DNA of 35,575 nt, from positions 1 to 35,575 of the forward strand of contig JAQTNJ010000011.1 in assembly GCA_028713955.1 (NCBI GenBank), given 5' to 3'. A program made the position numbers and the translations under genes. Of this stretch, positions 2,933-22,648 are shown piece by piece; position 1 is the first letter of the stretch; the number at the start of each line of letters is the position of its first letter. Source of the stretch: Syntrophorhabdaceae bacterium (GTDB lineage Bacteria; Desulfobacterota; Syntrophorhabdia; Syntrophorhabdales; Syntrophorhabdaceae). The notes beneath the pieces were generated by a model. It worked only from the letters and a program-made list of their open reading frames with translations, was not told the DNA's origin and did no database searches.

Positions 2933-2936
2933 AATA

Positions 2937-3657: not shown

Positions 3658-4851
3658 TTAAACTACCCCCTTATCCTTGAGTTGAGAAAGTTTTCTTTTA
3701 CTGAAACCTAATAACCCGCAATAGATTTCTTCATTATGTTCCCCTACCATAGGGGCGCGACAGGTTACCTTACCCGGTGTTCGCGACATTCTGAAAGGAA
3801 AACTGGGTATGGGGATCGTTCCTATCTTAGGATCCTCAACATAGGTGATCATCTCACGCGCCTGCACCTGAGGATCGTCTTTTATTCTGTTGATGGTATT
3901 GACCCTACTACAGGGGATGCGTACAGATTGAAGGAGATGCAATACCTCATCACAGGTTCTCTGTGCTGTCCATTCCGCAAAAATAGGATCCAGTTCTTTT
4001 GCATTGTCGAACCTAACCATATCGTTGGCGCCGTAAGTATCGGTAGAGGCCAGATCGGGCCGTCCGATTACCTTTGTCAGTCTTTTCCAGATACCGTTTG
4101 TGGCGCCGGAGATTAATACCCATTCTTTGTCTTTTGTCTCAAATATCCCGATATAGGCATGAAAACCAAGATTACCCACCTGGATGCGTATCTGGCCATA
4201 GACATCATAGAGAATAAGGGCACCCATCATCTGGGCAGAGAAACATGCAGTGTCAAGCAGGGAGGCATCGATGAACTGTCCCTCACCCGTTTTCTCTCGA
4301 TCATATAAGGCAGTGACAATACCGATGGCGGCAAAAAGTCCCGACATCATGTCATTGCTGGTGACTGTTGCCTTGAGTGGGGGAGAATTCGGGAACCCTG
4401 TGAGCATGAGGGCGCCTGATCGTGCCTGAGCCACATGGTCGAAACAGACCATCTCCCGGTCCGGTCCATTCTGGCCAAAACCTGAGATGGCTGCAACGAT
4501 AATCCTGCCATTGATCTCCTTGAGACGCTCATATGCCAGATCCACGGTTATGGGGGCACCGGGCGTAAAATTGTGGAGTACGACATCAGATCTCTTTACC
4601 AGTTCTCTAAGTATCGCCTTGCCTTCCTCGCCATTAAAGTTTAGAGTGATAGCCTTCCTGCTTCGGCCCGCTACTTTGTAGGAAAGCGTCTCTCCGTCCG
4701 GGCCGAGGAGGCCCCAGTGTCTATCCGGGGCCCCCTCTAATTCTTCAACTCTGATTACTTCCGCTCCCATATCACCCAGCATCATGCCGCATACTGGACC
4801 GGACTGAAATCGGGACAAGTCCAAGACCCTCACGCCTTCCAGCGCTTTCAT
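3658..4851 (-). CDS. Class III CoA-transferase (CaiB/BaiF family)
   Basis: The 397-residue product moves CoA from a donor acyl-CoA to a carboxylic acid. It opens with KALEGVRVLDLSRFQSGPVCG, the family's N-terminal signature, and has GRSRKAITLNF and GFGQNGPDRE. The Asp near residue 138 in CFDHVAQARSG aligns with the catalytic aspartate that forms the acyl anhydride. I start at the ATG at 4851, preceded by AGGAGGGG, rather than 45 bases upstream. The gap to the UbiD stop is 13 bp, so both are translated from one message, and this is the last gene of the long operon. Pairing with UbiD recalls phthalate degradation, where succinyl-CoA:phthalate CoA-transferase feeds a UbiD-type decarboxylase, but those transferases are usually two-subunit. 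The true acid is unknown. Confidence 0.9.
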   Translation of the reverse strand: MKALEGVRVLDLSRFQSGPVCGMMLGDMGAEVIRVEELEGAPDRHWGLLGPDGETLSYKVAGRSRKAITLNFNGEEGKAILRELVKRSDVVLHNFTPGAPITVDLAYERLKEINGRIIVAAISGFGQNGPDREMVCFDHVAQARSGALMLTGFPNSPPLKATVTSNDMMSGLFAAIGIVTALYDREKTGEGQFIDASLLDTACFSAQMMGALILYDVYGQIRIQVGNLGFHAYIGIFETKDKEWVLISGATNGIWKRLTKVIGRPDLASTDTYGANDMVRFDNAKELDPIFAEWTAQRTCDEVLHLLQSVRIPCSRVNTINRIKDDPQVQAREMITYVEDPKIGTIPIPSFPFRMSRTPGKVTCRAPMVGEHNEEIYCGLLGFSKRKLSQLKDKGVV

Positions 4852-4864
4852 TACAGTTCCCCTC

Positions 4865-6503: not shown

Positions 6504-8801
6504 TCAATTGCCGCCTTCCCTTTTACTCTTTAACGCACGCCAGACCTTTTCATATGTCAAAGGCAGGCTGTCTATAAAAACCCCCGTGGCATCAAAAATG
6601 GCGTTTGCCACGCTGCCTTCGGTCGGCACTCCAGCTCCCTCTCCAACTTCTTTGACCCCCCAGGGACCTGCCGGTTCGGAACTCTCCACGACCACCGATT
6701 CGAACATCGGAACATCAAGGGCTGTGGGCATTCTATACTCGGACAGGTTGGGATTGAGGATTCGTCCTTTTTCGTCGAACCGTACCTCCTCCCAGATTGC
6801 CTCACCGACACCCATAAAAATACCGCCATGTGTCTGTCCGTGAACAAGGGCCGGGTTGATCACCCTACCTGAATCATGGATATCCCAAGCACCCTTCAGA
6901 TCTATCTCACCGGTCTCCTCGTCCACCTGCACCTCAATAACCTGGGCGGAGAAGCTGTAAGCTGGTGAAGCCCCAACCGCGGCCCCTTTGTAGCTTCCAC
7001 CAAGCTTGGGCGGTGTGTATGAACCATGTCCTGTAAGGGGCCCATTTAGAACAAAATACTCACGGGTCACCTTCCCGAAGGATTCTCTGATACTCGGGTT
7101 ATCCTTTGCAAAAATCATGGCGTCCCTGCAGTCCAATGTGGCCGGATCCACCTGCATCATTTCTCCCGCCATCTCGAGCACTTTTGCCTTGATCATTTCT
7201 CCCGCTCTCTTCACCGCCCAACCGGACATGAGCGTTTGCCGACTGGAATAGGCCCCAAAATCATGGGTCGATCTTTCGGTATCAGCAGACACTACAGACA
7301 TATTTTCATACGTAAAACCCATGGCTTCTGCTGCCATCTGACAGAGTACCGTGTTTGATCCCTGACCTATGTCTACCGCCCCCGTGTAAAGGGTTGCTGC
7401 AGACCCATCCTCATTCACTTTTATTAACGCGGTAGAATGCGGCAGATTTGTGCGGTAAATGGGATAAGCCGCGCCGCACACGTAGCCGCCCAGTGCTATC
7501 CCTATCCCCCCGCCCCGAGGGAGTTTGCCCTTCTTTTCATTCCAGCCGGAAACCTTCCGGGCAGTCTCAATGCAGGCCTCCAGTTCGCAGGAGTTGACGG
7601 CTAACTCGTTTACCGTTATCGTATCGGGCTTTCTTCTGTTCTTTAGCCGTAGTTCTAAAGGATCCATATCCAAATCCCGCGCAATCCTGTCAAGTTGGCT
7701 CTCAAGAGCGTATTTAGGGTGGGGAGCGCCATGACCGCGCTGGGAAGCCGAGCCCGGAAGATTGGTATAGACCCTGAACATGTCGTACCTGAAGTTATCA
7801 AACTCATAAGAGACTGGGAGAAGCGCCCCTGAGTAATAAGCTGTGGCAATGCCGTTGCCGGTGTAAGCGCCTCCGTCCATAATAAAATTCGCATGGACCC
7901 CTAAGATTTTTCCTTCCCGGTCCACACCGGTTGTCAGTTCCATGATCTGACGGTGTCGTCCCCTGTTGTGGGCAAACATGTCATGTCGATCATAGAACAT
8001 CTTCACCGGTCTTCCTGTGATACGTGATAGAGCAACAGCGGCAAAGTCGAGTCCCATCGCAGCCGCCTTGGCCCCAAAACCACCCCCTATGAAAGGGGCA
8101 ACGACGCGCACATTTCCCATGGTCAAGTCAAATTGCCTTGCCAGGTCCACCTGGAGGTAGTGGGGTTTCTGAGTGGTTGCATAAAGGGTTACCTTTTCAC
8201 CCTCCCACATGGCGATGGATACGTGCGGCTCCAGGGGAGAGTGATACGTGCGATGTCCCACAAACGTGTCTTTTCTTACGTGAAAGGCGTGATTGAAGGC
8301 CTCCTCCACGTCTCCGAAGGACTGGTGGACCTCTGCGTTGATATTTCCAGGATAATCCTCGTGGATAAGCGGTGCCCCTTCTGCCATTGCCTCCACAGGG
8401 TCAAAAACGGCCGGCAGCACCTCATAATCAACCCTTATGAGCTTCAAGGCTTGATATACAATCTCTTCGTCGATCGCCGCCACGGCAGCCACTTTATCGC
8501 CGACATGGCGTACCTTGTCGATACAAAATATGTTCTCATCCCGTCGGGCCGGGGAGACCCCATACTTTTTTGACGGCACGTCTTTGTGGGTGATGACGGC
8601 CTTCACTCCCGGAAGTCTTTCGGCGTCAGACGTATCGATCCGGAGGATGCGCGCATGGGCGTACGGGCTTGTAAGGATCTTTCCGAACAGCATATTCGGG
8701 AATTTGAGATCTCCGGTATAAAGGGCCTGGCCGGTAACCTTCGCGTGGGCGTCTATCCTGGGAACACTCTTACCAATTACGGCATAATCTCCATTTTTCA
8801 T
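6504..8801 (-). CDS. hcrA: Xanthine-dehydrogenase-family molybdopterin subunit, 4-hydroxybenzoyl-CoA reductase alpha-like
   Basis: This is the large catalytic subunit binding molybdopterin cytosine dinucleotide. The 765 residues match the usual length of 4-hydroxybenzoyl-CoA reductase alpha. It opens with VIGKSVPRIDAHAKVTGQALYTGD and has the cofactor loops GGGFGAKAAAMGL and GSASQRGHGAPH, then DIGQGSNTVL. The C-terminal GVKEVGEG carries the conserved active-site glutamate near residue 721. The known enzyme removes the para-hydroxyl of 4-hydroxybenzoyl-CoA to give benzoyl-CoA in the cytoplasm. The gene begins one base after the 2Fe-2S subunit gene ends, and the FAD subunit lies just before that, so a heterotrimer is expected. 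The family also contains hydroxylating dehydrogenases, and the atypical FAD subunit next door keeps the exact reaction open. Confidence 0.85.
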   Translation of the reverse strand: MKNGDYAVIGKSVPRIDAHAKVTGQALYTGDLKFPNMLFGKILTSPYAHARILRIDTSDAERLPGVKAVITHKDVPSKKYGVSPARRDENIFCIDKVRHVGDKVAAVAAIDEEIVYQALKLIRVDYEVLPAVFDPVEAMAEGAPLIHEDYPGNINAEVHQSFGDVEEAFNHAFHVRKDTFVGHRTYHSPLEPHVSIAMWEGEKVTLYATTQKPHYLQVDLARQFDLTMGNVRVVAPFIGGGFGAKAAAMGLDFAAVALSRITGRPVKMFYDRHDMFAHNRGRHRQIMELTTGVDREGKILGVHANFIMDGGAYTGNGIATAYYSGALLPVSYEFDNFRYDMFRVYTNLPGSASQRGHGAPHPKYALESQLDRIARDLDMDPLELRLKNRRKPDTITVNELAVNSCELEACIETARKVSGWNEKKGKLPRGGGIGIALGGYVCGAAYPIYRTNLPHSTALIKVNEDGSAATLYTGAVDIGQGSNTVLCQMAAEAMGFTYENMSVVSADTERSTHDFGAYSSRQTLMSGWAVKRAGEMIKAKVLEMAGEMMQVDPATLDCRDAMIFAKDNPSIRESFGKVTREYFVLNGPLTGHGSYTPPKLGGSYKGAAVGASPAYSFSAQVIEVQVDEETGEIDLKGAWDIHDSGRVINPALVHGQTHGGIFMGVGEAIWEEVRFDEKGRILNPNLSEYRMPTALDVPMFESVVVESSEPAGPWGVKEVGEGAGVPTEGSVANAIFDATGVFIDSLPLTYEKVWRALKSKREGGN

Positions 8802-8802
8802 A

Positions 8803-9312
8803 TCACGCCCCTCGGTCCTTTGTGACCGCCGCCGCGAGCACGGCTTTTACGATATTGACATAACCGGTACATCGGCAGAAATTGCCTGCAATAGCCTCCC
8901 GCACCTCTGTTTCCGTGGGATGGGGATTACGTGTCAAAAGGGCCTTGGCCGAAAGGATCATACCGGGTGTACAAAAGCCGCACTGCACTGCGGCATTATC
9001 GATGAACGCCTGCTGCACCGTATCCAGTTGACTATTTTTCGCCACCCCTTCGACGGTGATGATCTCGTGGCCATCGGCTTCTATAGCCAAAATCAGGCAC
9101 GAATCGACCGGTTCTCCATCCAGCAGAACCGTGCACGACCCGCAGTTCCCTAATTCGCAGCCCTTTTTTGTGCCAGTAAGGTTAAGCTGGTCCCGCAAAA
9201 CATTGACGAGCAGTGTGTTCGCTTTCACAGCGATGTTATAGGAATCGCCATTCACTATCAATTGTATGGCATACCGTTTGTCACGGCCGGTATTATTCTC
9301 AATGCATTCCAT
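8803..9312 (-). CDS. hcrC: [2Fe-2S] subunit of the molybdenum hydroxylase-family enzyme (HcrC-like)
   Basis: The 169-residue iron-sulfur subunit carries electrons between the FAD and molybdenum subunits. A plant-type [2Fe-2S] domain has Cys52, Cys57, Cys60 and Cys72 in GCELGNCGSCTVLLDGEPVDSC order. A second all-helical [2Fe-2S] domain has Cys111 and Cys114 (CGFCTPGM) and Cys146 and Cys148 (CRCTGY). All eight ligands are present. There are about ten extra residues at the N-terminus compared with typical homologues; a later start is possible but no better methionine is visible. The start overlaps the preceding FAD-subunit stop by one base (TAATG), indicating coupled translation. Confidence 0.9.
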   Translation of the reverse strand: MECIENNTGRDKRYAIQLIVNGDSYNIAVKANTLLVNVLRDQLNLTGTKKGCELGNCGSCTVLLDGEPVDSCLILAIEADGHEIITVEGVAKNSQLDTVQQAFIDNAAVQCGFCTPGMILSAKALLTRNPHPTETEVREAIAGNFCRCTGYVNIVKAVLAAAVTKDRGA

Positions 9313-10243: not shown

Positions 10244-11551
10244 CTATTGCTGGAGGGACTGAGGATAAAACCCCAATTTATTAAAACGTTTGTCCACCAA
10301 TCTTTGGAGTTGCTGAAGCTCATCCTCATTCATGTGACGGTATCTGCCTATCAATTTGGTATAGTCGCCAATCGGTTGTGGCGTGTTGATTTTATAAGTT
10401 AGGCGCAGTACCCCCTGCTCATATTCCCATAGCGGAAAATAATTAGTTTCCACGGCGAGTTTGCCTACATCAATGGATTTATCTATCGGGAATCCCCAGC
10501 CCGTTGGGCAGGGGGTCAGTATGTGTATGTAGGACATGCCATCCTTAACATTCATGGCCTTGGTGAGTTTCCGGGCATAGTCTTCCAGGTAGGCGGGGCT
10601 CGCCGTGGCAACATATGAAATGTCATGAGCAACCATAATAAGAGGCATGTATTTGCTGTCACGGTCTTTTCCATGTAGTTCCCCACCAACGGGACTGGTA
10701 GTCGTCAGAGACCCAAAAGCGGTAGTGCTGCTCATCTGGTTACCCGTATTTTGATAGCCTTCGTTATCGTAGCAAAGCACTATTAATTTTTCTTTTCTCA
10801 TAGCTGCGGCCGAAAGTGCTTGAAACTCAATGTCAGATAGGCAGCCATCTCCAATGTAGGCTACAAGATTTGCCTCTTTCCCAATATGACGATAGTATCT
10901 GTAAGTTCCGGTCATCGTCGAGATAACGTTAGTGAAAAGACAAGAAACATATGGTAACCGACTCCCGGCCATAGTTTCATGGCCGGTCATCAATATAGTC
11001 ATACATCCCGGACATCCGAAGAATACAGTATTACTTCCCAAGATTCTTTGACTAAACCTATAAATGAGCTCACCCGGACATCCGGCACAGGCCCTTGTTC
11101 CCGGAGATAAGAAATCCTCATCACTCAAATAGCTCCGAATATTATCACCCCGGAAAAATTCTAATGCTCCGTAGGGGCATGCAGAGACACACTCCGGCGC
11201 ACCACCACACAAGTCACATTTCAAGGCCATCCGAGCATTTGAGTCGAAAAGCATATTCTGATGAGGACAAGCTTCGATACAAGTTTCACAGCCTATACAA
11301 TTTTCTTGTATAACTCTTACTATACCATTCTCCTCATCCTGGACTATGGCATCATTAGGGCAAGCATCTTTACATTCAGGTTTCCTGCATTGCAGGCAGG
11401 TTATTGCCTTGTAAACACCAGCTTTACGAACCTGGTTAGCATTGATTACCGAACCAAGATTGCCCATCTTTTTGGCGCATGCTTCCTCACAAGCAAAACA
11501 ATCTGACGGACAGACATTGCGTATCTTTCGTACGAAATTAGATAGTTTCAT
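10244..11551 (-). CDS. padI: 2-Oxoacid oxidoreductase TPP subunit fused to a four-cluster ferredoxin domain (PadI-like)
   Basis: Residues 1-130 form a ferredoxin domain with sixteen cysteines in four groups (14, 18, 21, 25; 52, 55, 60, 64; 85, 88, 91, 95; 112, 115, 121, 125), enough for four [4Fe-4S] clusters. From about residue 145 the chain is the beta subunit of a pyruvate:ferredoxin-oxidoreductase-type enzyme: SPGTRACAGCPGELIYRF, then the thiamine-diphosphate motif GDG at 234-236 followed by CYDNEGYQNTGNQMS. Ordinary PorB proteins lack this N-terminal domain. The size (about 48 kDa) and the gene order padE-F-G-I recall phenylglyoxylate oxidoreductase, which converts arylglyoxylate plus CoA to aroyl-CoA and CO2. 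The usual padH NAD reductase gene between padG and padI is absent. Substrate assignment is inference from the neighbours. Confidence 0.82.
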   Translation of the reverse strand: MKLSNFVRKIRNVCPSDCFACEEACAKKMGNLGSVINANQVRKAGVYKAITCLQCRKPECKDACPNDAIVQDEENGIVRVIQENCIGCETCIEACPHQNMLFDSNARMALKCDLCGGAPECVSACPYGALEFFRGDNIRSYLSDEDFLSPGTRACAGCPGELIYRFSQRILGSNTVFFGCPGCMTILMTGHETMAGSRLPYVSCLFTNVISTMTGTYRYYRHIGKEANLVAYIGDGCLSDIEFQALSAAAMRKEKLIVLCYDNEGYQNTGNQMSSTTAFGSLTTTSPVGGELHGKDRDSKYMPLIMVAHDISYVATASPAYLEDYARKLTKAMNVKDGMSYIHILTPCPTGWGFPIDKSIDVGKLAVETNYFPLWEYEQGVLRLTYKINTPQPIGDYTKLIGRYRHMNEDELQQLQRLVDKRFNKLGFYPQSLQQ

Positions 11552-11587
11552 TTATCTCCTCCAAAATTCCAATGCGTTTTCCCGTAT

Positions 11588-12781
11588 CTATTCAAGATCC
11601 AGCCAGGTAACCTCGTTGTAGGACTTACCTTGAGCAGCTTGGTCTACGAAGTCAATAGCTCTTTCGATAATTCCCGGCGTAATATCTGAATCGCAAAGAC
11701 CGCAGATAAAGTCAAGCATGGGTATTTTTATACCCAGGTCATACAAGGCAGCCTTTACCTCCGGGAAAACGTTACCGCAGTCCCAGCCGAAGTAGACGCT
11801 TCTGTCCAGAACCCCTATAGCTTTTCTCTGTTTTAAGGCTGTGGCTAACTTTTCTTTTGGAAATGGCCTGAACATCCTTACCCTCAACAACCCTACCTTT
11901 AATCCCTCGGCACGCTTTTTATCTATTATAACTCTGGCGGTACTGGCGCTACTTCCCATAGCTATCAGCACTATATCTGCATCGTCAGTCATATACTCTT
12001 CGATTTGCCCACCGTAGCCTCTACCAAAATTCTCTTGGAACTCCCGGGCTATTTCATCAAATTTTTCCTTAGCCCGGCTAATAGCAGCGCTCTGCTTATA
12101 TCGATATTCAGTGGCCACCCTACTTGATATCCAGGGGCCAAACACCATTGGGTTTTGAGGATCTACCTTAGGGCTTGTCTCAAGCGGTGGGAGAAACTTT
12201 GCCACCTCTTCGCGAGTCGGAATTTCTACCGGTTCCCACATATGAGAGAGGAACCAGCCATCGTAACAGACAACAACCGGGGTGCGTATCTCCTTGTCTT
12301 CTGCCAATTTGTAAGCCATCACTATCAGGTCTAAAATTTCCTGGCATGACCGTGCGTGGAGTTGAATCCACCCCATCCCCTTGGTCATCATGATATCCGA
12401 GTGGCCAGAGACCACTATGTGAGGCCCTGCGATCTCTCGGCAAACGTTAACCATTACAATAGGGAGACGCTGCGTTGCCACTTGTATGCAGTTTTCAAAC
12501 ATAAAGACCAGCCCCTGAGCGGCCGTTGCTGTAAAAGTCCTTCCTCCGGCAACCGCTGCTCCTCTTAGAATACCCATTGACGAGTGCTCACTTTCCGGTT
12601 CGATTAACTCTGCATCCAATAACCCCTGAGCCTTAAAGTTATAAAGGGTTTCCACAACATCTGTTTGGGGGGTGATGGGATATGCCGCTATGACATCTGG
12701 CTGGCACAACATTGCACCATAAGCTGCCGCCCTGTTTCCGTCCAGAACTTTGATCTCCTTCGAAGTGCTTTTATTGTTCAT
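11588..12781 (-). CDS. padG: 2-Oxoacid oxidoreductase alpha subunit (PadG / PorA-like)
   Basis: The 397-residue alpha subunit binds substrate and supports the thiamine site. It opens with GNRAAAYGAMLCQPDVIAAY, then PITPQTDVVETL and the ESEHSSMGILRGAAVAGGRTFTATAAQGL segment, all typical of PorA. The C-terminal half has DADIVLIAMGSSASTARVII and GLLRVRMFRPFP, the domain that contacts CoA in related enzymes. The gene starts one base after the padF-like ferredoxin gene ends. With the gamma, delta and beta genes it encodes a complete four-subunit enzyme. PorA alone cannot separate pyruvate from arylglyoxylate use; the position next to the PadBCD-like genes favours the latter. Confidence 0.85.
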   Translation of the reverse strand: MNNKSTSKEIKVLDGNRAAAYGAMLCQPDVIAAYPITPQTDVVETLYNFKAQGLLDAELIEPESEHSSMGILRGAAVAGGRTFTATAAQGLVFMFENCIQVATQRLPIVMVNVCREIAGPHIVVSGHSDIMMTKGMGWIQLHARSCQEILDLIVMAYKLAEDKEIRTPVVVCYDGWFLSHMWEPVEIPTREEVAKFLPPLETSPKVDPQNPMVFGPWISSRVATEYRYKQSAAISRAKEKFDEIAREFQENFGRGYGGQIEEYMTDDADIVLIAMGSSASTARVIIDKKRAEGLKVGLLRVRMFRPFPKEKLATALKQRKAIGVLDRSVYFGWDCGNVFPEVKAALYDLGIKIPMLDFICGLCDSDITPGIIERAIDFVDQAAQGKSYNEVTWLDLE

Positions 12782-12782
12782 C

Positions 12783-13046
12783 TTATGCCTCCCTCACCAT
12801 TTCAATAACTCCCACAGGGCATATTCGGGCGCAAATACCACATCCCTTGCAATAGTCCAAATTTGCCTCGAAATGGCTTCCCATATCGCTCACACACCCC
12901 ACAGGGCAGAAGAGGGAACACGCTCCGCACCGGCAGCATTTGCTCGCTGTCACCACTGGCCTTTGGTATTTCCACTCCCCGGTCTTAAGCATTAATATCT
13001 TATCGGAATATGCCCAAGGTGTGTCGAATTCAGTTGTAAGCTTCAT
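12783..13046 (-). CDS. padF: 2-Oxoacid oxidoreductase delta subunit, 2[4Fe-4S] ferredoxin (PadF / PorD-like)
   Basis: An 87-residue ferredoxin-like subunit. Two cluster motifs are intact: CCRCGACSLFCPVGC in the middle and YCKGCGICARICPVGVIEM at the C-terminus. The N-terminal part (PWAYSDKILMLKTGEWKYQRPVV) is the short arm that PorD subunits use to dock on the complex. It passes electrons from the thiamine site toward ferredoxin. It lies 10 bp after the gamma gene and 1 bp before the alpha gene, so all subunits are probably made from one message in matched amounts. Confidence 0.88.
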   Translation of the reverse strand: MKLTTEFDTPWAYSDKILMLKTGEWKYQRPVVTASKCCRCGACSLFCPVGCVSDMGSHFEANLDYCKGCGICARICPVGVIEMVREA

Positions 13047-13056
13047 AACTCCTCCC

Positions 13057-13605
13057 TTAGAATCTCACAGACTCTGCTTCCTTAAATCCCCGCTCTACAC
13101 ACTTTCGATTTTGTTCCAGTTTATCGCCGGTAAAGTAATCTCCCAAAATAGACAAGAGAGAATTTAGCTGCACCCATCCCGTTGTGCGGGCAAAGGCACC
13201 AAGCATGGCGGTGTTAGTCACCGCTATTCCTACCTCCTCCAGGCCTATTTTTGTTGCATCAACAGAGCCAATGAGGCTGATGTTTTTGTGGAGTTGTTTC
13301 TTTACTGGATTGAGTGCGTTTATAATGAGAGTGCTGTCCGGTCTTATACCGTCAAATAAGGTCGGGGATGAGATAAAACCCGAATCAATAACCACCAGAC
13401 AATCGGGGTTATAAACCCTGGTTTTTTCCCAGATTGGTTTATCATCAAATCGAGCGAATGCCATAATTGGTGCTCCCCGCCTTTCCATGCCGAATGACGG
13501 AAATCCACTGGCCCATTTCCCCTCAAGGACTTGGGCGGCGGCCAGCATCCGCACTATCATAACTCCACCCTGACCGCCTCTGCCGTGAATCCTTATCTCT
13601 TTCAT
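13057..13605 (-). CDS. padE: 2-Oxoacid oxidoreductase gamma subunit (PadE / PorG-like)
   Basis: The 182-residue gamma subunit begins KEIRIHGRGGQGGVMIVRML, the family's glycine-rich signature, followed by SFGMERRGAPIMAFARFDD. The rest (VVIDSGFISSPTLFDGIRPD, GSVDATKIGLEEVGIAVTNT) matches PorG through its C-terminus. It contributes to the CoA-dependent catalytic core. The gap to the membrane-anchor gene upstream is 14 bp and to the delta gene 10 bp. Position directly after the PadBCD-like genes reproduces the pad gene order known from denitrifying phenylacetate degraders, as I recall it. Confidence 0.87.
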   Translation of the reverse strand: MKEIRIHGRGGQGGVMIVRMLAAAQVLEGKWASGFPSFGMERRGAPIMAFARFDDKPIWEKTRVYNPDCLVVIDSGFISSPTLFDGIRPDSTLIINALNPVKKQLHKNISLIGSVDATKIGLEEVGIAVTNTAMLGAFARTTGWVQLNSLLSILGDYFTGDKLEQNRKCVERGFKEAESVRF

Positions 13606-13619
13606 TGTAAGCTCCTTAA

Positions 13620-14486
13620 TTAAGTAGTTTTGGGAATAAGTGGGTTATAGAAACCGTATTTCAGGATCAGATAACGCATGCCGAGGTCTCCCAGCAATTC
13701 ACACAAAAGTGTCAGATAAAGTATTGCTGCCGGGGTTGACCGGCTACCGGTCATCATTGCGATAACCGGTATACCTATTCCTATAATAACCACTACTATC
13801 CAAAATATGTACCATCCCTTGCCCTTAATAATTTCTGAAATCGATGTCTTTGCTGCGATGGTGCCATAATTTATACTGATGAGATACGTAAAAAGGAGGA
13901 TGATGAAACTTATGAGCAGCAGATGGACCCACTCTTCAACACCGGTCAGCATCTGTGCAGAACCTTTTGCTACCGCTACACCAAGGGTTATACCCGCACC
14001 CCCCCAAAGTCCGCTCGCTACATAGATTATTGGCAACAGCGCCGTGTTCCAGAGGGGGATACCATTGATACAGCACATGGCGAACCCGCCGTATATGACA
14101 ACAAGAAAAGAGAGCACTATAGTCAATACAGAGAGAATGCTCGAAGTAATGGAAAAGAAACCCAAAACGATGTTGATAAACCCGAGAAGAAGAAAGAGTG
14201 ACACAAAGATCATCCCTCTTGATATCCAGGAAGTTTGCGGTCTTACGACCATACGGTAGAATCTGAAAGGTCGCCCGAGGTACAGGAAGTGTAATCCGCC
14301 TCCCAGCAACCCGCATAAAAGCCACCCAATACCCTTGGCAGGCAGACTATTGAAAAATGAGCCGACGAAGTATGCCCCTGCTCCCAGTTCTATAAAGAAA
14401 AAAGCGAGCCATAAAAGAATACCTTTATGTTCTATCCACTCTGTTTGTGGTGTACATTTTACCATCCAATCATAGGCTTTCACCAT
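13620..14486 (-). CDS. padD: NrfD/PsrC-type membrane anchor subunit (PadD-like)
   Basis: A 288-residue integral membrane protein with about eight hydrophobic segments, for example LLWLAFFFIELGAGAYFVG near the start and several Ile/Leu/Val-rich helices through the rest. The early segment with the acidic residue, then GLHFLYLGRPFRFYRMVVRPQTSW, is the NrfD/PsrC pattern. Such subunits anchor molybdenum oxidoreductases and pass electrons to or from membrane quinone. It follows the Fe-S subunit gene by 20 bp. With the catalytic and Fe-S subunits it forms a three-subunit complex like phenylacetyl-CoA:acceptor oxidoreductase. Other PsrABC-type complexes share this subunit, so the name rests on context. 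Confidence 0.82.
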   Translation of the reverse strand: MVKAYDWMVKCTPQTEWIEHKGILLWLAFFFIELGAGAYFVGSFFNSLPAKGIGWLLCGLLGGGLHFLYLGRPFRFYRMVVRPQTSWISRGMIFVSLFLLLGFINIVLGFFSITSSILSVLTIVLSFLVVIYGGFAMCCINGIPLWNTALLPIIYVASGLWGGAGITLGVAVAKGSAQMLTGVEEWVHLLLISFIILLFTYLISINYGTIAAKTSISEIIKGKGWYIFWIVVVIIGIGIPVIAMMTGSRSTPAAILYLTLLCELLGDLGMRYLILKYGFYNPLIPKTT

Positions 14487-14506
14487 CCCTGCCTCCTTGT
14501 TCCGAT

Positions 14507-15160
14507 CTACCGGATAATGTAGTAAACCGAGGGGTTTGTGCCAAACTCTGGACCGAGCTGAAACGCTTTCCTTTCACTCACCAATCTTGCAATCTCGCTT
14601 TCAGGGTCATCAAGATCTCCGAAATACCTTGCCTTTGCCGGACAGGCATTCACGCATGCAGGAGTGGCATTACGGTCAACTCCGGGTTTCAATCCTCGTT
14701 TAATCCCTGCATCGATCCTTTCCGCGCAGAAAGTACATTTCACTACTGTACCTTCCTGCAGAGGAAAGAGTTCTTTCCCGATCATTTCCCACTCTGTGAA
14801 GCCCTGGCCAGGGAAATACTGCGTGCTGTCATCCCCGTAAAAGGTTCTCTGCTGATAAGGACAGGCCATTACACAATAGCGACATCCCACGCATTTATCG
14901 TAGTCAATTATCACAATACCGTCTTCTCTCTTGATAGAGGCTCCGGTAGGACATACATTTACACAAGCAGCGTCCTTGCAATGATTACAGAGGACGGGAT
15001 AAATGAGTTTCTTTACACTGGGGAACTTCCCTGCTTCACTTACAAGCACCCTCCCCCAGAATATCTTCGGAGGAAGATAATGTTCCTGCTTACAGGCAAC
15101 CATACAACCATAGCACCCGATACACTTGTTAAGATTTATTACCATGCCCCATCGCGCCAT
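14507..15160 (-). CDS. padC: Four-cluster ferredoxin subunit of a DMSO-reductase-family complex (PadC-like)
   Basis: The 217-residue electron-transfer subunit has four cysteine groups for [4Fe-4S] clusters: CIGCYGCMVAC near residue 13, CNHCKDAACVNVCP near 58, CVGCRYCVMACP near 90, and a split set CTFCAERI with CVNACPAKA toward the C-terminus. This is the DmsB/PsrB/NrfC arrangement. It links the molybdenum catalytic subunit to the membrane anchor. No signal peptide is present, so it sits on the cytoplasmic side. Gaps are 11 bp to the catalytic gene and 20 bp to the anchor gene. Confidence 0.88.
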   Translation of the reverse strand: MARWGMVINLNKCIGCYGCMVACKQEHYLPPKIFWGRVLVSEAGKFPSVKKLIYPVLCNHCKDAACVNVCPTGASIKREDGIVIIDYDKCVGCRYCVMACPYQQRTFYGDDSTQYFPGQGFTEWEMIGKELFPLQEGTVVKCTFCAERIDAGIKRGLKPGVDRNATPACVNACPAKARYFGDLDDPESEIARLVSERKAFQLGPEFGTNPSVYYIIR

Positions 15161-15171
15161 AAACCACCCCT

Positions 15172-17961
15172 CTAAATTTTTATCACCCTGACCCGTACTG
15201 CCGTTTCGAGATTGAGGCTTAGCTGGTCGGAATGTTTAAGGTCTATTTCAAGGAGATTATCGAAATTTGTCCCTTTGCCCTTAGCAATAGGCATTCCCTT
15301 TGCCCAATGGCCGGCGCAGGCGGCGATTGAGCACGTTTGTGGATGCTGGCCCTGCATTGTCTTCAAGGTTCCCGTTACCCTCCTGCCTGTTACCGTCTCA
15401 ACCACAATCGAATCACCACTTTTAAGACCCTTTGCCGTTGCGGTGTCTTCATTCATACATATGTGGTAAGTATAGGGATTCATCATGCTTGCCTCATCAA
15501 TCCAGGGCTGCTCCATGGTAGCAGAGCCTGTATGAAGCACATCGCGGTACGAGAAGCAGTAAAGATCATATTCCGGGTCGTCTACTTTGTGTATTGAACA
15601 AGGTGTCCACGAAATGCACGGGGTGTACTGCGTGTAGTCAACGTCAAGCCCTATTCGATCAGTTATTACTTTCATTTTTTCCTTCATATCTATCAAAAAC
15701 TCGAGATAGATAGGCACTCTGCAGTCAACGAAATATCTCCAGTAGGCTTCCTCCACCTTTTTTTGCCACTTGATAAAACCATGTTCCCGAAAGTAATCCA
15801 AGCCATGTTTCTCACCAAACCAGAACTTCAGAGACCTGTCTGCCAGACTCTCTTCGGTAAATATTTCGTCTGGTTTCAAGGCGTGTTTCTCATCAAAATC
15901 AAAAAAGTCATTCATTGATTTGTTTAGTATTGCCCTCATCCCCATTCTGTCAAAAAGCTCCCAGACAACCGGCAAAAAGCTTCTCCGTTCCTTTTCCGGC
16001 TCTACTACGGGTAGCACAGTATGGAAACACCAGTCGCCCATGCCGTAAGGATAGTTAAAATTCTGTCCCTTTCCTTCGGTCCAGCTCAACATTTCCAGGT
16101 AAGAGCAGTCAGGTAACACAATATCGGCAAAACCTTCTGTAAGCTCTGTATTAAAAAGTTCCACTACCACGATAAATGGTATCTTCTTAAGGCTATTCTC
16201 TATGGCCTCCCAGCTTCCAACACTAAGCGGAGTATTACACCCCCAGCTTAACATCATCTCGAACCTATAGGGCAGGTTGATCTTTTGCCATATTTCATCC
16301 TGATCGCTTGCCCCGAATACTCCTGGGTCAAAACCAATGCCAAAGATATCTTTCAATTGGGCATTGCCTGTCATTGCAGGATCCTTGAGGGGCCATGGCC
16401 CGCATGACTTAAATTCTTCTACCTTTATCATCCTTTCCGGCAGACGGGCCAGTTCGTATGCAATATCCCGGGTAACAACAGATCCTGACTCCACAATTAA
16501 TCTGCCTTCTTTATCACGCACTGTTTCTAGTATTACTCTTCCGGTTAATCCATCAAATGTGTTCTTAACCTCGTTGATACGATGGGGCGGGTGTAACATG
16601 GCTGGCCCGAAATAATCGGTCTGCAGAAATCCATCGACCCCCATGTACGGTGAAAAAGCGAACCTGCCTGTTTCGGGATATCCAAGACACCGTGGCGGCC
16701 ATCCAAGGGTACCTCCATACACGTCAGCGGATCCGACAATCCCGTTGAGGAGCCCTATGGCGAAACAGGTCATTAAGGAGTTTTCGTGACCCTCGCCTCC
16801 ACGAAAAAGCACAGCGGATACCGGTCTCATGGGGACTTCATGTCCATCCAACATAACAGTGCTCCCCACTCTTGCTGCCTCGGCAAATTCCTTAGCTATA
16901 ATTCGGATTTTCTCTGCCGGCACAGTTGATACCTTTGATGCCATTTCAGGTGTATACTGCTTGAGGTGCTCTTTTACACGCTCAAAAACAGGACAGCAGA
17001 CAATACCATTTACCTTATACTCTCCTTCCAGCGCATAATTCACTGCACAAGCTGCCCGATAATTCGGAATCTCGCGATAATCGTGGGGTACGGCCCTTTC
17101 CTCGTCCTGATCCCAGACCAAACATCTCTTTGTTTCTTTGTCTCTTACGTATCTCCCGTCAGGCCCTATGAGGTACGGCGCATTGGTTTTTGCTTTTAGA
17201 AACACCTTATCTATAATACCCAGCTCATTTACAATGATATTGCACATGGCAAGAGCTATTGCCCCGTCAGTGCCAGGGATGACGGGCACCCATTCTGATG
17301 CTTTCCCTCCGGCATAATTGCATTGGGGATCAAAAATAACGAATTTCCCCCCTCTATCCCGGCACTCTGCAGCAAGCCTGGTGGATATTCCTGATGAATG
17401 ACCTGCCGCGGTGCCTTTGCTGGCGCCAAAATAGATAATATAGTTACAATTATCATAATCCGGTACTATTGACCATGAGCTATTTATCATACCGGCGACT
17501 GCGTGCGCTCCAGCCCCACAGTGAAGTCCTCCCCCTCCTACCCAGATATTTTTCATTCCCGCGTCAAATAAAGGCTTTAGGCCAAAGGAAGAGAAAAAAG
17601 TCCTTAGTACTGAAGTCTGTGCCAGTAATTTTCCGGGCTCTTCCCGGAGTATTTTTCCGAGACGGCTGGCTATTTCGGTCAGCGCTTCTTCCCAGGATAC
17701 TTCCTTCCACTTCGGATCTGCATGCAACCCTTTTTCGGGATTGGTTCGCTTTAGGGGCATATTGAGTCGGTTTGGATCGTAGAGCACCTGAAGAGCTGAG
17801 AGTCCTTTAGCACATAACCCTCCCCTTGCACCCATATCAGAATCAGGATTTCCTTCTATCTGGGTGGCTACACCGTTGATACGGTGAACTCTCACGGCAC
17901 AGCCACCGTAGCACCTGCCACACATGCTCGTTATCCATGTATCATCTTGTTGGATGTTCAT
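15172..17961 (-). CDS. padB: Molybdopterin oxidoreductase catalytic subunit, phenylacetyl-CoA:acceptor oxidoreductase-like (PadB)
   Basis: This 929-residue DMSO-reductase-family subunit has an N-terminal [4Fe-4S] motif from Cys14, Cys17, Cys21 and Cys50. The molybdenum-bis-guanine-dinucleotide domains follow, and Cys148 in GGGGLHCGAGAHAV is a possible metal ligand. The C-terminal cofactor-capping domain includes MNPYTYHICMNEDTATAKGL. There is no twin-arginine signal, so the active site faces the cytoplasm. That excludes most periplasmic arsenate, polysulfide or nitrate enzymes and fits a CoA-ester substrate. PadBCD oxidises phenylacetyl-CoA to phenylglyoxylate in denitrifiers. The downstream genes keep the order B-C-D-E-F-G-I, which supports an arylacetyl-CoA oxidase. 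The gene follows the TRAP permease by 55 bp. The tungsten/molybdenum choice and the exact ring substituent are unknown. Confidence 0.8.
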   Translation of the reverse strand: MNIQQDDTWITSMCGRCYGGCAVRVHRINGVATQIEGNPDSDMGARGGLCAKGLSALQVLYDPNRLNMPLKRTNPEKGLHADPKWKEVSWEEALTEIASRLGKILREEPGKLLAQTSVLRTFFSSFGLKPLFDAGMKNIWVGGGGLHCGAGAHAVAGMINSSWSIVPDYDNCNYIIYFGASKGTAAGHSSGISTRLAAECRDRGGKFVIFDPQCNYAGGKASEWVPVIPGTDGAIALAMCNIIVNELGIIDKVFLKAKTNAPYLIGPDGRYVRDKETKRCLVWDQDEERAVPHDYREIPNYRAACAVNYALEGEYKVNGIVCCPVFERVKEHLKQYTPEMASKVSTVPAEKIRIIAKEFAEAARVGSTVMLDGHEVPMRPVSAVLFRGGEGHENSLMTCFAIGLLNGIVGSADVYGGTLGWPPRCLGYPETGRFAFSPYMGVDGFLQTDYFGPAMLHPPHRINEVKNTFDGLTGRVILETVRDKEGRLIVESGSVVTRDIAYELARLPERMIKVEEFKSCGPWPLKDPAMTGNAQLKDIFGIGFDPGVFGASDQDEIWQKINLPYRFEMMLSWGCNTPLSVGSWEAIENSLKKIPFIVVVELFNTELTEGFADIVLPDCSYLEMLSWTEGKGQNFNYPYGMGDWCFHTVLPVVEPEKERRSFLPVVWELFDRMGMRAILNKSMNDFFDFDEKHALKPDEIFTEESLADRSLKFWFGEKHGLDYFREHGFIKWQKKVEEAYWRYFVDCRVPIYLEFLIDMKEKMKVITDRIGLDVDYTQYTPCISWTPCSIHKVDDPEYDLYCFSYRDVLHTGSATMEQPWIDEASMMNPYTYHICMNEDTATAKGLKSGDSIVVETVTGRRVTGTLKTMQGQHPQTCSIAACAGHWAKGMPIAKGKGTNFDNLLEIDLKHSDQLSLNLETAVRVRVIKI

Positions 17962-18016: not shown

Positions 18017-19933
18017 TTAACTCCTTGATAGTAAACTGTCAACAGACCTTCTTGTATGCAACATGATCCCGAAGAGAATTATAATGAATCCTATAACGTC
18101 AAACCATCCGCTGACCTTTGTTGTCGGTGCAAATACCAGTGTTCCTCCGGTTATGAAGAACAGCCTCTCTACAAAAGTAAGTCTTTTTGCTAAGAAACCT
18201 TCGAATCCTATGGCAATAGCAATAACACCCGTTGTTGCAGTGATTATGGAGAGGATTATGGTACTCCATGATCCGTCCAGTAGCAATCCGGGGTTATAGA
18301 CAAAAACAAAAGGGACTACGTAGCTCACAAAGGCTAAGCGCATGGCAATGTAGCCTGTCTTCATAGGGTCCCCTTTGGATATACTGGCAGCTACATAAGC
18401 TGCTACAGCAACAGGCGGTGTGATGAAGGACATTATACCCCAGTAAAAAACGAAGAGATGGGCAGCCATGGGAGCTACACCGGCTTTCACCATTGCCGGA
18501 GCCACAAGGATAGCAAGCACAAGGTAACATGGTACCGACGACATGCCCATCCCGAGTATAAATGAACTTACTGCCGTCAGCAGAAGGAGAAAAAACAAAT
18601 TTCCCCCGGCGAGATTAACAAGCATGCTCGAAAGCTTGAAACCAAACCCGCTCGTGTCTATGGAACCAATGACGATTCCTGCCGAGGCACAGGCCATTGC
18701 AGGTACGAGAAGGTCCTTTGCCGTACTTTCCATAATCTCAATAAACCATACAACCCACCCTTTCAGGTTTTTCCTCGTCTCTTTTTTTCTTTGGAAATCT
18801 ATGATCGTCACCACAATGGCAGAAAGAGCTGCATAAAGACCACAGTGCTGAACAGGGAGGTGCAGCCAGACAAGAGCATAAATGAGAACGAAGACGGGGA
18901 TCACATAAAACCATTTATCTTTCAGAACTTTCTTAATGGAGGGCAATTGATCAGCAGGTAACCCGTGCAGCCTCATCTTGGCCGAATGAAAATGTACCTG
19001 TGTGAAAAGAGCTAAGTAGTAAAGCAGCGCAGGAAAGATCGCTGCGATACAGACAGAGACATAGGGAACCCCGAGCACCTCTGCTATCATGAATGCGACT
19101 ATCCCCATCACCGGCGGCATAATCTGTGCGCCGTTACTGGCGCAACATTCAACTGCGCCTGCAACATTCGCTGAAAAACCGTTCTGTTTCATTAAGGGTA
19201 TTGTAATTGTTCCGGTGGTAACAACATTAGCAACCGTTGCACCCTCCAATGTCCCCAAAAGGGAGCTGCCAACTATGGCGGCTTTTGCAGGACCGCCGGT
19301 CCATCTGCCTGTAAGGGCAAAGGCAAAGTCTGTTATAAAGCTTGCCGCACCGGAACTTTTAAGAATTGCTCCGAAGAACATAAATGCAACAACTATGGTA
19401 AATGCAACTGAAACGGGTAATCCAAATATTCCGTTAGGGCTGAAATAAAATAGAGTGGTAATTCTTTGGAGACTGAAAGAAAAAGTTGCCAACGGACCCG
19501 GAAGGTAAGATCCAACCAGAAGATGTGCGACGAAAAAGGCAGCGATAATTGCCATAGTGGTATTAACCATTCTTCTCGTAGCTTCTAAAATGGCTATCAC
19601 GAGCATAAAACACATTACAATCTCAATATTGGTCGAAATGCCGCTCGTGAGCGCCTCTTCCCTCAGCTCAGGAAAAAATACAATATAGAATGTACTCACC
19701 AGGCTCAAGATAATAAACAGAAGGTCATGCCAACAAGTTTTATCCTCTGACATTCCTTTTTTTATAGGGTACGTCATGAAAACCATGGTTAACACCAGCC
19801 CAAGAATAAAGCTGAAATAACTAACTGCCGATATGTGCAGCCCGAATGTTTCGAAAACATTTGTCATGTATAATGCTGCGGATATGCTTATAACAATGGA
19901 AATTAATGTGATAAACGCTTTTTTGTTCATCAT
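18017..19933 (-). CDS. Fused TRAP transporter permease 1 (DctQM type)
   Basis: A 638-residue membrane protein in which the small (DctQ, about four helices) and large (DctM, about twelve helices) TRAP subunits are one chain, followed by extra hydrophobic C-terminal helices. The large-subunit signatures are clear: GSSLLGTLEGATVANVVTTG, CCASNGAQIMPPVMGIVAF, FILGMGMSSVPCY and YWGIMSFITPPVAVAAYVAA. TRAP permeases use an ion gradient to import organic acids delivered by a periplasmic binding protein. The TAXI binding protein gene lies 58 bp upstream, and the pad genes follow. Two ATGs in tandem occur at the start; the second (19930) is better spaced from the AGGGG, so the N-terminus is uncertain by one residue. 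Confidence 0.92.
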   Translation of the reverse strand: MMNKKAFITLISIVISISAALYMTNVFETFGLHISAVSYFSFILGLVLTMVFMTYPIKKGMSEDKTCWHDLLFIILSLVSTFYIVFFPELREEALTSGISTNIEIVMCFMLVIAILEATRRMVNTTMAIIAAFFVAHLLVGSYLPGPLATFSFSLQRITTLFYFSPNGIFGLPVSVAFTIVVAFMFFGAILKSSGAASFITDFAFALTGRWTGGPAKAAIVGSSLLGTLEGATVANVVTTGTITIPLMKQNGFSANVAGAVECCASNGAQIMPPVMGIVAFMIAEVLGVPYVSVCIAAIFPALLYYLALFTQVHFHSAKMRLHGLPADQLPSIKKVLKDKWFYVIPVFVLIYALVWLHLPVQHCGLYAALSAIVVTIIDFQRKKETRKNLKGWVVWFIEIMESTAKDLLVPAMACASAGIVIGSIDTSGFGFKLSSMLVNLAGGNLFFLLLLTAVSSFILGMGMSSVPCYLVLAILVAPAMVKAGVAPMAAHLFVFYWGIMSFITPPVAVAAYVAASISKGDPMKTGYIAMRLAFVSYVVPFVFVYNPGLLLDGSWSTIILSIITATTGVIAIAIGFEGFLAKRLTFVERLFFITGGTLVFAPTTKVSGWFDVIGFIIILFGIMLHTRRSVDSLLSRS

Positions 19934-19991: not shown

Positions 19992-21035
19992 TTATCTTTT
20001 AGCTCCAATCTCAGCGAGAAGCTTGTTTTGGCGTTCATCCAGTTCCTTTGTCCAGACCCCTATCTCCTTATAGTACTTTATTGCTCCTGGGTGATAAGGC
20101 ATGTAGTTTATCCTCTTCACGGACTCGGTGCTGAAATATTTTGCCCCCGAATGGTAGGTCTTAAATTCATCGAAATGAGTCCAGACAGCCTTTGTTAGTT
20201 CATAGACAAATCTGTCGGGAAGATCTCCGTTCCCGCAAACGATGGAGGAGAATGCCGAAACGGTGACGTCCTTCGGCATGGTTTTATATGTCCCGCCCGG
20301 TATCTTCATCGGAAACATGTAGGGTACGTTTTTCACCATCTTTTTCATATGTTCATCATCTACATTGACAATTTTCATCGGATGCGTCGCTGCAAGCTCT
20401 GCCCACTTAGCGGAGGGATGGGGTGTGGGATCGATGAAGAAATCAACTTTGCCGACGATCAGCGCCTCTATCGCTTCAGTAACGGTATCATGTGGCAAAG
20501 AAGCCTTAAGATCTTCAGCCTTCATGCCGTATGCTTGCAGGGTTTCTTTAAAAAAAGTCCGGCAGATAGGAGAAGCGCGACCACCTATATGACCTGCCTT
20601 GCCCTTTAAATCCGAAGGAGAATTTATGCCCTTGCCTTCCAGCGTGGTAATGGTGTACCCCAAGGGGAAATCCTGCAGTATAACCCTCACGTTTAACCGG
20701 CCTGTTTTCTTGAAATTACCTATCCCCCGGACACAGTCGGAGCCCACATCAGGGGTTATAAAACCAAATTGTATTTCGTTCCTGTGGAGTAGCCGTGCTG
20801 TTTCTTCGGCCCCGGATGTCTTTGAGGGTATACCCGCAATTCCCAGATATTTCTCGGAGATCGCACCTATCCCGCCTGCGATAGCGTAATACACAGACCC
20901 TGTTCCCGATCCTATCGCATACGTCTTCGGCCAGTCTTTATCAGGTTTTGGTTTTTCTGGTGCAGCCCCTAAGAAGAGGAAACCAATCACAAAAATTAAA
21001 CACACGTTGATAAAAGTACAACTCACCTTTTTCAT
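19992..21035 (-). CDS. TAXI-family TRAP solute-binding protein 1
   Basis: The 347-residue periplasmic receptor begins with a signal peptide (basic MKK, then a hydrophobic VCLIFVIGFLFLGAA stretch). The ligand-binding fold follows, with YAIGSGTGSVYYAIAGGIGAISEKY, the glycine-rich opening of the TAXI family. Later features are TARLLHRNEIQFGFITPDVG, SDLKGKAGHIGGRASP and the C-terminal YHPGAIKYYKEIGVW. It should present a carboxylate to the permease encoded next. It is the first gene after the sigma-54 promoter at 21079-21093, so uptake and catabolism share one switch. The ligand is not readable; an aryl acetate or hydroxybenzoate is plausible. Confidence 0.9.
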   Translation of the reverse strand: MKKVSCTFINVCLIFVIGFLFLGAAPEKPKPDKDWPKTYAIGSGTGSVYYAIAGGIGAISEKYLGIAGIPSKTSGAEETARLLHRNEIQFGFITPDVGSDCVRGIGNFKKTGRLNVRVILQDFPLGYTITTLEGKGINSPSDLKGKAGHIGGRASPICRTFFKETLQAYGMKAEDLKASLPHDTVTEAIEALIVGKVDFFIDPTPHPSAKWAELAATHPMKIVNVDDEHMKKMVKNVPYMFPMKIPGGTYKTMPKDVTVSAFSSIVCGNGDLPDRFVYELTKAVWTHFDEFKTYHSGAKYFSTESVKRINYMPYHPGAIKYYKEIGVWTKELDERQNKLLAEIGAKR

Positions 21036-21161: not shown

Positions 21162-21208
21162 TTTTTTGTACATAAAATGGACATGTCCTAAAATTGGAGG
21201 GTTTTATT

Positions 21209-22648
21209 ATGTTTTCACATGATTTAGTATCAGATATTTTTAGTGATTTAACAACCGGATATGAGTTTAATCCTGTTATTGGATGCGCTATACGATTCTT
21301 CTTACGTAACCCATATGAAAGTACGTTAATCATCGATAAAAATGGATGCGTCCAATATATGGAAAAAGCATCGGAAAGATTCCTTGGCCTGGAGCCGGGA
21401 GAAGCTAAGGGGATGGATGTTTCAAAGCTCATACCCGACTCAGCGCTCCCGTCTGTATTAAAGACAGGCAAACCAATTGTTGGAAGGATATTTGAAGTGA
21501 GGGGGGTCAAAAGAATAGGCGCTGTATATCCTTTAAAGATAAGAGGGGAAATCGTTGGGGGTCTTGGTAAGATAATATTCCAAAATCTTGTAGATGTTGA
21601 AAACATAAACAATGAAATACAGGTACTTAAAAAAGAGGTACAGCATTTCAAACAGAAAGAACAAAAAGAACATAGCTCAGTTTATACCTTTGACAACATA
21701 CTTGGGGAAAGCAAAACAATAAAAGAAGCTATTGAAACTGCAAAAAATATTTCCAACCTTAATATCGATGTCATGATTTTGGGGGAGAGCGGAACGGGTA
21801 AAGAGTTGTTTGCCCATAGCATTCATAGTGCCTCTGGCTTGAATAAACCATTTGTAAAAATAAACTGCCCCGCTATTCCATTTGAACTTGCAGAGTCAGA
21901 ACTTTTTGGGTACGAAAAAGGGGCATTCACCGGAGCACTGCCTTTCGGAAAGGAAGGCTATTTTGAAACGGCAAATAACGGAACAGCATTTTTGGATGAA
22001 ATCTCTACACTACCACTATCAATTCAGGCAAAACTTCTTCGAGTCCTGGAAGAAAGAGAGATAAAAAGATTAGGAAGTACGAAAGCAAAAACAATAAATT
22101 TCAGGGTTGTGTCAGCCACGAATATAGATTTGAAAAACCTCTTAAATGAAGGAAAGTTTCGACAGGACCTCTATTACAGGGTCGCAAAGGCTATTATTTA
22201 CATTCCTCCTTTGAGAGACAGAAGGGAAGATATACCCATTTATATTGATTACTTTATTAAAAAAATTTCCCAATCATTCAAAATGCAACCTAAGACCATA
22301 TCTGACAAGGCAATGGATATTCTTTATAATTATTACTGGCCGGGCAATGTGAGAGAATTAATAAACGTATTAGACCAAACCATCATTAAGGCATCAAACG
22401 ACAAAGAGATCAGAGCTGAACACCTGCCTTCTGATATTCCGGTACACGCGCAAAAACCGCACCATACTGAGGTGCCTGAAAACACGCACAGCATAAAACA
22501 GGAAATAACAGAGGCGGAGAGAAATCTCATCACGTCTGCCCTGAGGCAGACAAACGGAAACAAGAGAAAGGCGGCAATCCTTCTCTCCATGCCAAGGTCA
22601 ACCCTTTACGAGAAGATAAAGAGGCATAATATTCGTCCGGATTTATGA
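21209..22648 (+). CDS. Sigma-54-dependent transcriptional activator (PAS, AAA+, Fis HTH)
   Basis: The 479-residue regulator has a PAS-like sensing domain (about residues 25-130: STLIIDKNGCVQYMEKASER onward) and a coiled linker. The AAA+ domain has Walker A GESGTGKE, the sigma-54-contacting GAFTGA loop and Walker B GTAFLDE, and the C-terminal Fis-type helix-turn-helix is GNKRKAAILLSMPRSTLYEK. It remodels sigma-54 RNA polymerase at -24/-12 promoters. I start at the ATG at 21209, which has GGAGGG at 21196-21201, rather than the TTG fifteen bases earlier. It is transcribed away from the 14-gene operon, and the operon's sigma-54 promoter lies in the shared 173-bp intergenic region. The PAS domain probably senses the aromatic substrate or a metabolite; the ligand is unknown. 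Confidence 0.92.
   Translation: MFSHDLVSDIFSDLTTGYEFNPVIGCAIRFFLRNPYESTLIIDKNGCVQYMEKASERFLGLEPGEAKGMDVSKLIPDSALPSVLKTGKPIVGRIFEVRGVKRIGAVYPLKIRGEIVGGLGKIIFQNLVDVENINNEIQVLKKEVQHFKQKEQKEHSSVYTFDNILGESKTIKEAIETAKNISNLNIDVMILGESGTGKELFAHSIHSASGLNKPFVKINCPAIPFELAESELFGYEKGAFTGALPFGKEGYFETANNGTAFLDEISTLPLSIQAKLLRVLEEREIKRLGSTKAKTINFRVVSATNIDLKNLLNEGKFRQDLYYRVAKAIIYIPPLRDRREDIPIYIDYFIKKISQSFKMQPKTISDKAMDILYNYYWPGNVRELINVLDQTIIKASNDKEIRAEHLPSDIPVHAQKPHHTEVPENTHSIKQEITEAERNLITSALRQTNGNKRKAAILLSMPRSTLYEKIKRHNIRPDL

Follow-up and report, generated by a model that had tools for sequence, protein, structure and literature searches.

Organization of the locus

The stretch of DNA analysed here (the window) is the whole of contig C11 (JAQTNJ010000011.1; 35,575 base pairs, bp) of a Syntrophorhabdaceae assembly of 3.45 Mb that is 96% complete; a search for the 16S gene in this assembly found none. 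On the minus strand, open reading frame (ORF) and family searches identified padB-C-D-E-F-G-I-like genes (17961-10244), followed by genes like hcrB, hcrC and hcrA (10199-6504) of 4-hydroxybenzoyl-CoA reductase (HCR). The intergenic gaps from PadB through HcrA range from -1 to 44 bp, the pad-to-hcr distance lying within 44 bp. A TAXI/TRAP importer is encoded upstream of pad, with gaps of 55-58 bp between padB, TRAP and TAXI, and beyond it lies a sigma-54 regulator in divergent orientation; downstream of hcr are a UbiD gene resembling phthaloyl-CoA decarboxylase (Pcd) and a class III CoA-transferase gene (Table 1). ORFs, domains and gaps thus confirm the proposal of an earlier note on this DNA that a padBCDEFGI-like order runs directly into hcr-like genes in one tight row on the same strand. 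The pad set is complete, as that note had it, only if the missing padH is disregarded, and the interval 10244-17961, given there as the merged operon, holds the pad part; hcr lies outside it and the row reaches further both ways. We read the row as a catabolic operon for an aromatic acetic acid in an anaerobic deltaproteobacterium, with a hydroxylated acid such as 4-hydroxyphenylacetate as the likeliest substrate, and think this about evenly poised between right and wrong.

A second member of this genus, of a different species (G005; DIFC01000047.1, Deltaproteobacteria bacterium UBA5758), has its genes in the identical order, TAXI-TRAP-padBCDEFGI-hcrBCA, with 72-95% protein identity. Because a second species has the same junction, chance and an assembly chimera are ruled out as its origin. 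The pad-hcr fusion was seen in two genomes only, both of this genus; strong PadB matches occur in 3 of the 395 genomes of the phylum, and no described pad-hcr operon turned up in the literature searched, a scope outside which many subscription papers fell. Genes in related loci were called as the longest ORFs, and the trees are FastTree trees of modest samples. The row is probably co-transcribed; scans for sigma-70 promoters and sigma-54 -24/-12 sites gave nothing above chance, and terminator-like sites were barely above chance level.

Table 1. Features of the window (G, genomes; C, contigs; L, loci of our set).
Feature	Coordinates	Strand	Basis
Sigma-54-dependent regulator, divergent to the operon	21194..22648	+	Pfam/NCBIfam; orthologues adjoin pad or UbiD1-type clusters in G011, G022, G006, G018
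TAXI-family TRAP solute-binding protein	19992..21035	-	TIGR02122 above cut-off
TRAP fused permease	18017..19933	-	TIGR02123 above cut-off
PadB-like bis-MGD molybdenum subunit, 929 amino acids (aa), without leader	15172..17961	-	Family searches, tree
PadC-like Fe-S electron-transfer subunit	14507..15160	-	Family searches; 47% to canonical PadC
PadD-like NrfD-type membrane anchor	13620..14486	-	PF03916; hydrophobic segments
PadE-like 2-oxoacid oxidoreductase gamma subunit	13057..13605	-	TIGR02175 above cut-off; PadE model 180.5/300 bits
PadF-like delta (ferredoxin) subunit	12783..13046	-	Family search
PadG-like alpha subunit	11588..12781	-	Family search; tree
PadI-like beta subunit, N-terminal Fe-S domain	10244..11551	-	Best NCBIfam match NF045766 (PadI) 395.6 bits, cut-off 700; tree
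HcrB-like FAD subunit, CO-dehydrogenase-medium-chain type, without HCR [4Fe-4S] loop	9312..10199	-	Family and structure-relative searches, loop comparison
HcrC-like [2Fe-2S] subunit	8803..9312	-	Family searches
HcrA-like molybdenum subunit	6504..8801	-	TIGR03194 1029 bits, cut-off 995; best PDB match 1rm6_A; tree
UbiD-type decarboxylase (UbiD1), Pcd superclade	4865..6373	-	Best PDB match 8oz5 Pcd; tree
Class III CoA-transferase	3658..4896	-	PF02515; 32-bp overlap with UbiD gene
Hybrid ORF, 128 aa	3221..3607	-	Comparison with sister genomes
UbiX flavin prenyltransferase (prFMN supply for UbiD)	2327..3109	-	Pfam/NCBIfam
Aryl-type AMP-forming CoA ligase	23138..24772	-	Pfam/NCBIfam; 73% orthologue after CoA-transferase in G011

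The PadBCD-like molybdoenzyme

The PadBCD-like set combines a leaderless molybdenum subunit with an Fe-S subunit and a membrane anchor. Five codons before the PadB start the reading frame is closed by a TAG, so a Tat or other leader is impossible, which bears out the earlier suggestion of a cytoplasmic molybdenum subunit. The N-terminal four-cysteine Fe-S motif is kept. Cys148, the predicted molybdenum ligand, aligns with a cysteine of the arsenate reductase ArrA near the ArrA molybdenum ligand and has an equivalent in 61 of the 61 PadB-like sequences compared; a cysteine at this position presumably binds the metal. No close relative of PadB was found in the PDB.

In the tree, the clade of the window and canonical PadB are distinct branches of one supported PadB-like group, which sets apart 11 other relatives of the DMSO-reductase family (outgroups not named individually). 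Grouping with polysulfide/thiosulfate reductases, named beforehand as the result that would count against a PadB-like enzyme, was not seen with the relatives of that type sampled, and the tree rules this identity out. The linkage of PadB-like genes to PadEFG(H)I recurs across several subclades of this group, in Aromatoleum, Archaeoglobi, Chloroflexi and deltaproteobacteria. The canonical order padBCDEFGHI-padJ is found in Aromatoleum toluclasticum (L128); a second pad-like cluster of Aromatoleum (L129) has a PadB that shares 38% identity with that of the window over 421 aa. PadB of the window is not an orthologue of the PadB of the canonical, biochemically studied operon type. That it works like PadB is, on the sequence evidence, well founded; that it is PadB is not. 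The operon points to a PadB clade, known by sequence, that it shares with Chloroflexi. PadB-like molybdoenzymes of about 43% identity form a large sister clade, which comprises beta- and alphaproteobacteria and other phyla (L082, L062, L053, L070, L071, L090), with UbiD decarboxylase genes nearby in several loci.

The PadEFGI-like 2-oxoacid oxidoreductase

PadI of the window is a fusion of the PadI type, in which an N-terminal Fe-S domain is joined to a thiamine-pyrophosphate beta subunit. PadG and PadI branch with the phenylglyoxylate dehydrogenases of Aromatoleum, Sulfuritalea, Phaeospirillum and Archaeoglobi, plus a set from Chloroflexi, and apart from most generic 2-oxoacid reference enzymes, few of which are pyruvate enzymes. 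The earlier expectation that this enzyme would not group with pyruvate-specific enzymes agrees with this position, and both the tree, within the same small set of pyruvate references, and the PadI fusion argue against a pyruvate synthase.

PadH, the NADH subunit, is absent from the operon and from the whole assembly, so the PadEFGI-like enzyme should reduce ferredoxin. The presence of PadH and hcr is swapped between relatives: in a sister genus (G011) the operon has PadH, located between G and I, and no hcr on the fragments seen, whereas the window has hcr and no PadH. This swap suggests that the enzyme of the window passes electrons to a ferredoxin that HCR could use.

The HCR-like enzyme

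HcrA exceeds the NCBIfam cut-off for the HCR alpha subunit (Table 1), and its best solved relative is the Thauera HCR (551 bits); the beta and gamma HCR models score under their cut-offs. HcrA sequences of the window, G005 and G025 are sister to the copies at G000:C103 and G022:C84, and this combined group is sister to the HCR of Thauera, Aromatoleum and Phaeospirillum. The clusters at G000:C103 and G022:C84 have a UbiD above the phenylphosphate carboxylase beta cut-off and are phenol clusters; HcrA of the window is about 50% identical to such phenol-cluster copies of its own family. A phenol-type HCR set stands apart at C103 of this genome, so the copy in the window looks dedicated. The Glu726 equivalent is kept, as is Tyr326, which is retained in the HCR-grouped HcrA sequences and substituted in nearly all other paralogues; Tyr326 has a catalytic role in HCR.

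HcrB does not have the cysteine-rich [4Fe-4S] insertion, the low-potential relay of Thauera-type HCR, which Phaeospirillum, bin73 and a further copy in the same genome do have. The argument that a loop-less HcrB is not part of an HCR is weakened, as loop-less HcrB also stands beside HcrA in phenol clusters. Desulfatiglans anilini offers a parallel: the HCR alpha gene of its phenol cluster adjoins a "CO dehydrogenase medium subunit" (PMC6114531). A beta subunit without the loop is therefore compatible with HCR activity. In two xanthine-oxidase (XO)-type loci (L182, at G000:C120, and L178, in bin73) the FAD subunit has an HCR-style [4Fe-4S] loop although alpha scores under the HCR cut-off, so that the loop does not follow the phylogeny of alpha there.

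The CO-dehydrogenase type of HcrB, the many XO-type paralogues in the genome, and the distinct clade and motif of PadB would also fit a different function, in which the PadBCD-like and 2-oxoacid enzymes act on another CoA ester or 2-oxoacid, with the HCR-like enzyme working as a CO dehydrogenase/xanthine dehydrogenase-type oxidative hydroxylase. We consider this very unlikely, given the tree positions of PadI, PadG and HcrA and the retention of Tyr326.

The downstream UbiD/CoA-transferase module

UbiD1 begins 130 bp beyond hcr. Its nearest solved relative is Pcd (8oz5, 320 bits; next family 140), and in the tree it falls within the Pcd superclade (support 1.0). The sister genus G011 has three fragments (contigs C190, C175 and C167) that read TAXI-TRAP-padBCD, padEFGHI-AOR-FeS-UbiD1 and CoA-transferase-95 aa-ligase, across joins that we infer between the contigs; the ligase is 73% identical to that of the window. 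The position of hcr is occupied there by an aldehyde:ferredoxin-oxidoreductase-type protein (AOR) and an Fe-S protein (L176 4834-7235, G011:C175).

These neighbours raise the possibility that the substrate is a carboxylated arylacetate of the homophthalate type. The CoA-transferase or ligase would activate it, PadBCD and PadEFGI would turn 2-carboxyphenylacetyl-CoA into phthaloyl-CoA or hydroxyphthaloyl-CoA, UbiD would remove the second carboxyl and HCR any hydroxyl. UbiD1 belongs to the Pcd superclade, yet the tree places it in a sister group of true Pcd. TAXI/TRAP, UbiD, UbiX and CoA-transferase recall the EbN1 plasmid cluster and published o-phthalate clusters (PMC8269228), but the window has a single CoA-transferase gene, 26-28% identical to the EbN1 pair. 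Similarly, pad in G022 is adjoined by CoA-transferase, UbiD, UbiX and the same regulator type, but that UbiD is not Pcd-like; and while G011 keeps UbiD1 and the CoA-transferase with pad and without hcr, G005 has pad-hcr without an orthologue of either. On balance we judge this substrate unlikely. A quite unlikely alternative is that a transporter-pad-hcr module for arylacetate and a phthalate-like module (UbiD, CoA-transferase) are independent and became adjacent through rearrangement. In G018, UbiD1 and the CoA-transferase stand without pad beside the same regulator type, and G006 has UbiD1 accompanied by a ligase and TRAP; the 130-bp gap and a rearrangement just downstream, marked by a hybrid ORF in which one gene end is truncated, point the same way, whereas the same inferred order of pad, UbiD1 and CoA-transferase in G011, a second genus, over its three contigs, speaks for a unit. 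Because UbiD1 and the CoA-transferase are kept in G011, free of pad in G018 and G006 and missing in G005, a carboxylated substrate and plain adjacency are both serious rivals.

The hybrid ORF has a coiled-coil-like front, IS3-like by eye, and a 24-aa C-terminal piece of a conserved protein of about 90 aa; it gave zero Pfam/NCBIfam matches. In sister genomes this protein stands directly before the UbiX of a different cluster, UbiD-ligase-TAXI-TRAP, and that UbiX shares 92% identity with UbiX of the window. The hybrid ORF marks a recombination joint at the downstream edge of the operon; a rearrangement has therefore placed the end of a different UbiD cluster against it, so that UbiX and the HGD-D gene beyond it need not be operon members. 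The latter (570-1901), a subunit like HGD-D/benzoyl-CoA reductase, was rejected as part of the operon: it lies 425 bp beyond UbiX and is widespread in the family (24 of 40 relatives), in most cases where a close PadB is lacking. A 69% identical HGD-D paralogue at G000:C38 adjoins a double-cubane/BcrC-like partner and an hcrBCA set. On the other side of the operon, a second aromatic module (23138-29555) comprises UbiD2, TAXI, TRAP and the aryl-CoA ligase; in G006 (L193) a CoA-transferase and the sigma-54 regulator precede UbiD2-TAXI-TRAP, with 59-91% identity.

Proposed pathway

In the 4-hydroxyphenylacetate route that we favour, the substrate would be imported by TAXI/TRAP and activated to its CoA ester by the nearby AMP-forming ligase, the class III CoA-transferase or both. 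The cytoplasmic, membrane-anchored PadBCD-like molybdoenzyme would carry out the four-electron oxidation of the arylacetyl-CoA methylene, and the PadEFGI-like enzyme would convert the arylglyoxylate to aroyl-CoA by oxidative decarboxylation. The HcrBCA-like enzyme would then remove the para-hydroxyl, leading into the benzoyl-CoA pathway, whose marker Oah is above cut-off in the genome. Ferredoxin reduced by PadEFGI could supply the HCR-like enzyme directly as low-potential carrier, a coupling of oxidative decarboxylation to reductive dehydroxylation that the operon prompts as a hypothesis.

Several observations weigh against this route. PadB shares just 26% identity with the canonical Aromatoleum PadB (L128), lies in a separate clade and has the molybdenum-site motif GGGGLHCGAGAH in place of GSGQGVKCVHSEH; the NCBIfam models of PadE, F, G and I are all under cut-off (180.5/300, 73/150, 377/700 and 396/700 bits); the relay of HcrB is missing; UbiD is superfluous; and G011 keeps UbiD and CoA-transferase in an operon where the aldehyde oxidoreductase replaces hcr. 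The earlier claim of a conversion of 4-hydroxyphenylacetyl-CoA to benzoyl-CoA is therefore sustained in part, by the trees of PadB, PadG/PadI and HcrA, the HCR-alpha cut-off and the benzoyl-CoA marker, and is weakened by the non-orthologous PadB, the missing PadH, the loop-less HcrB and the extra Pcd-like UbiD and CoA-transferase. A further, rather unlikely scenario is that with the loss of PadH, ferredoxin from arylglyoxylate oxidation directly powers the loop-less HCR, and that the row also takes carboxylated arylacetates through the Pcd-like UbiD. If true, one redox-balanced operon would give (hydroxy)homophthalate-type compounds an anaerobic route that has yet to be described.

The genes for anaerobic breakdown of tyrosine- or lignin-derived hydroxyphenylacetates in sediments are poorly known outside denitrifiers, and the operon is a compact candidate gene set for this process in Desulfobacterota-type bacteria. 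Desulfococcus multivorans degrades phenylacetate without padB or padEFGHI (PMC5109826).

Comparison with known systems

Judged by sequence, the parts of the operon are of known kinds, on branches apart from the characterised members. The padBCDEFGHI(J) operons of Aromatoleum, Thauera and Azoarcus encode phenylacetyl-CoA:acceptor oxidoreductase and NADH:phenylglyoxylate oxidoreductase. The window shares with them the cytoplasmic molybdenum subunit, the NrfD-like anchor, the PadI Fe-S/TPP fusion and, as the earlier note had stated for the phenylacetate alpha-oxidation cluster of denitrifiers, the gene order save padH. It differs in this missing gene, in a PadB of another clade (26%), in the TRAP genes that precede pad and in the hcr (order B-C-A), UbiD and CoA-transferase genes that follow. 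Like Thauera aromatica HcrABC, the HCR-like enzyme has three subunits, the Tyr326 and Glu726 equivalents and an alpha subunit of the sister branch above the NCBIfam cut-off, whereas its beta subunit has no [4Fe-4S] loop and its beta and gamma models are under cut-off. The phenol-cluster HCR of sulfate-reducing deltaproteobacteria (Desulfatiglans anilini) similarly combines an HCR alpha with CO-dehydrogenase-like medium and small subunits; that of D. anilini is tied to phenylphosphate carboxylase and that of the window to pad. Finally, the phthalate-type cluster on plasmid 2 of A. aromaticum EbN1 (two CoA-transferases, UbiD, UbiX, TAXI/TRAP) resembles the window in its Pcd-superclade UbiD, class III CoA-transferase, UbiX and TAXI/TRAP, while the window has a UbiD of the sister group (36% identity to that of the plasmid) and one CoA-transferase, joined to pad-hcr.

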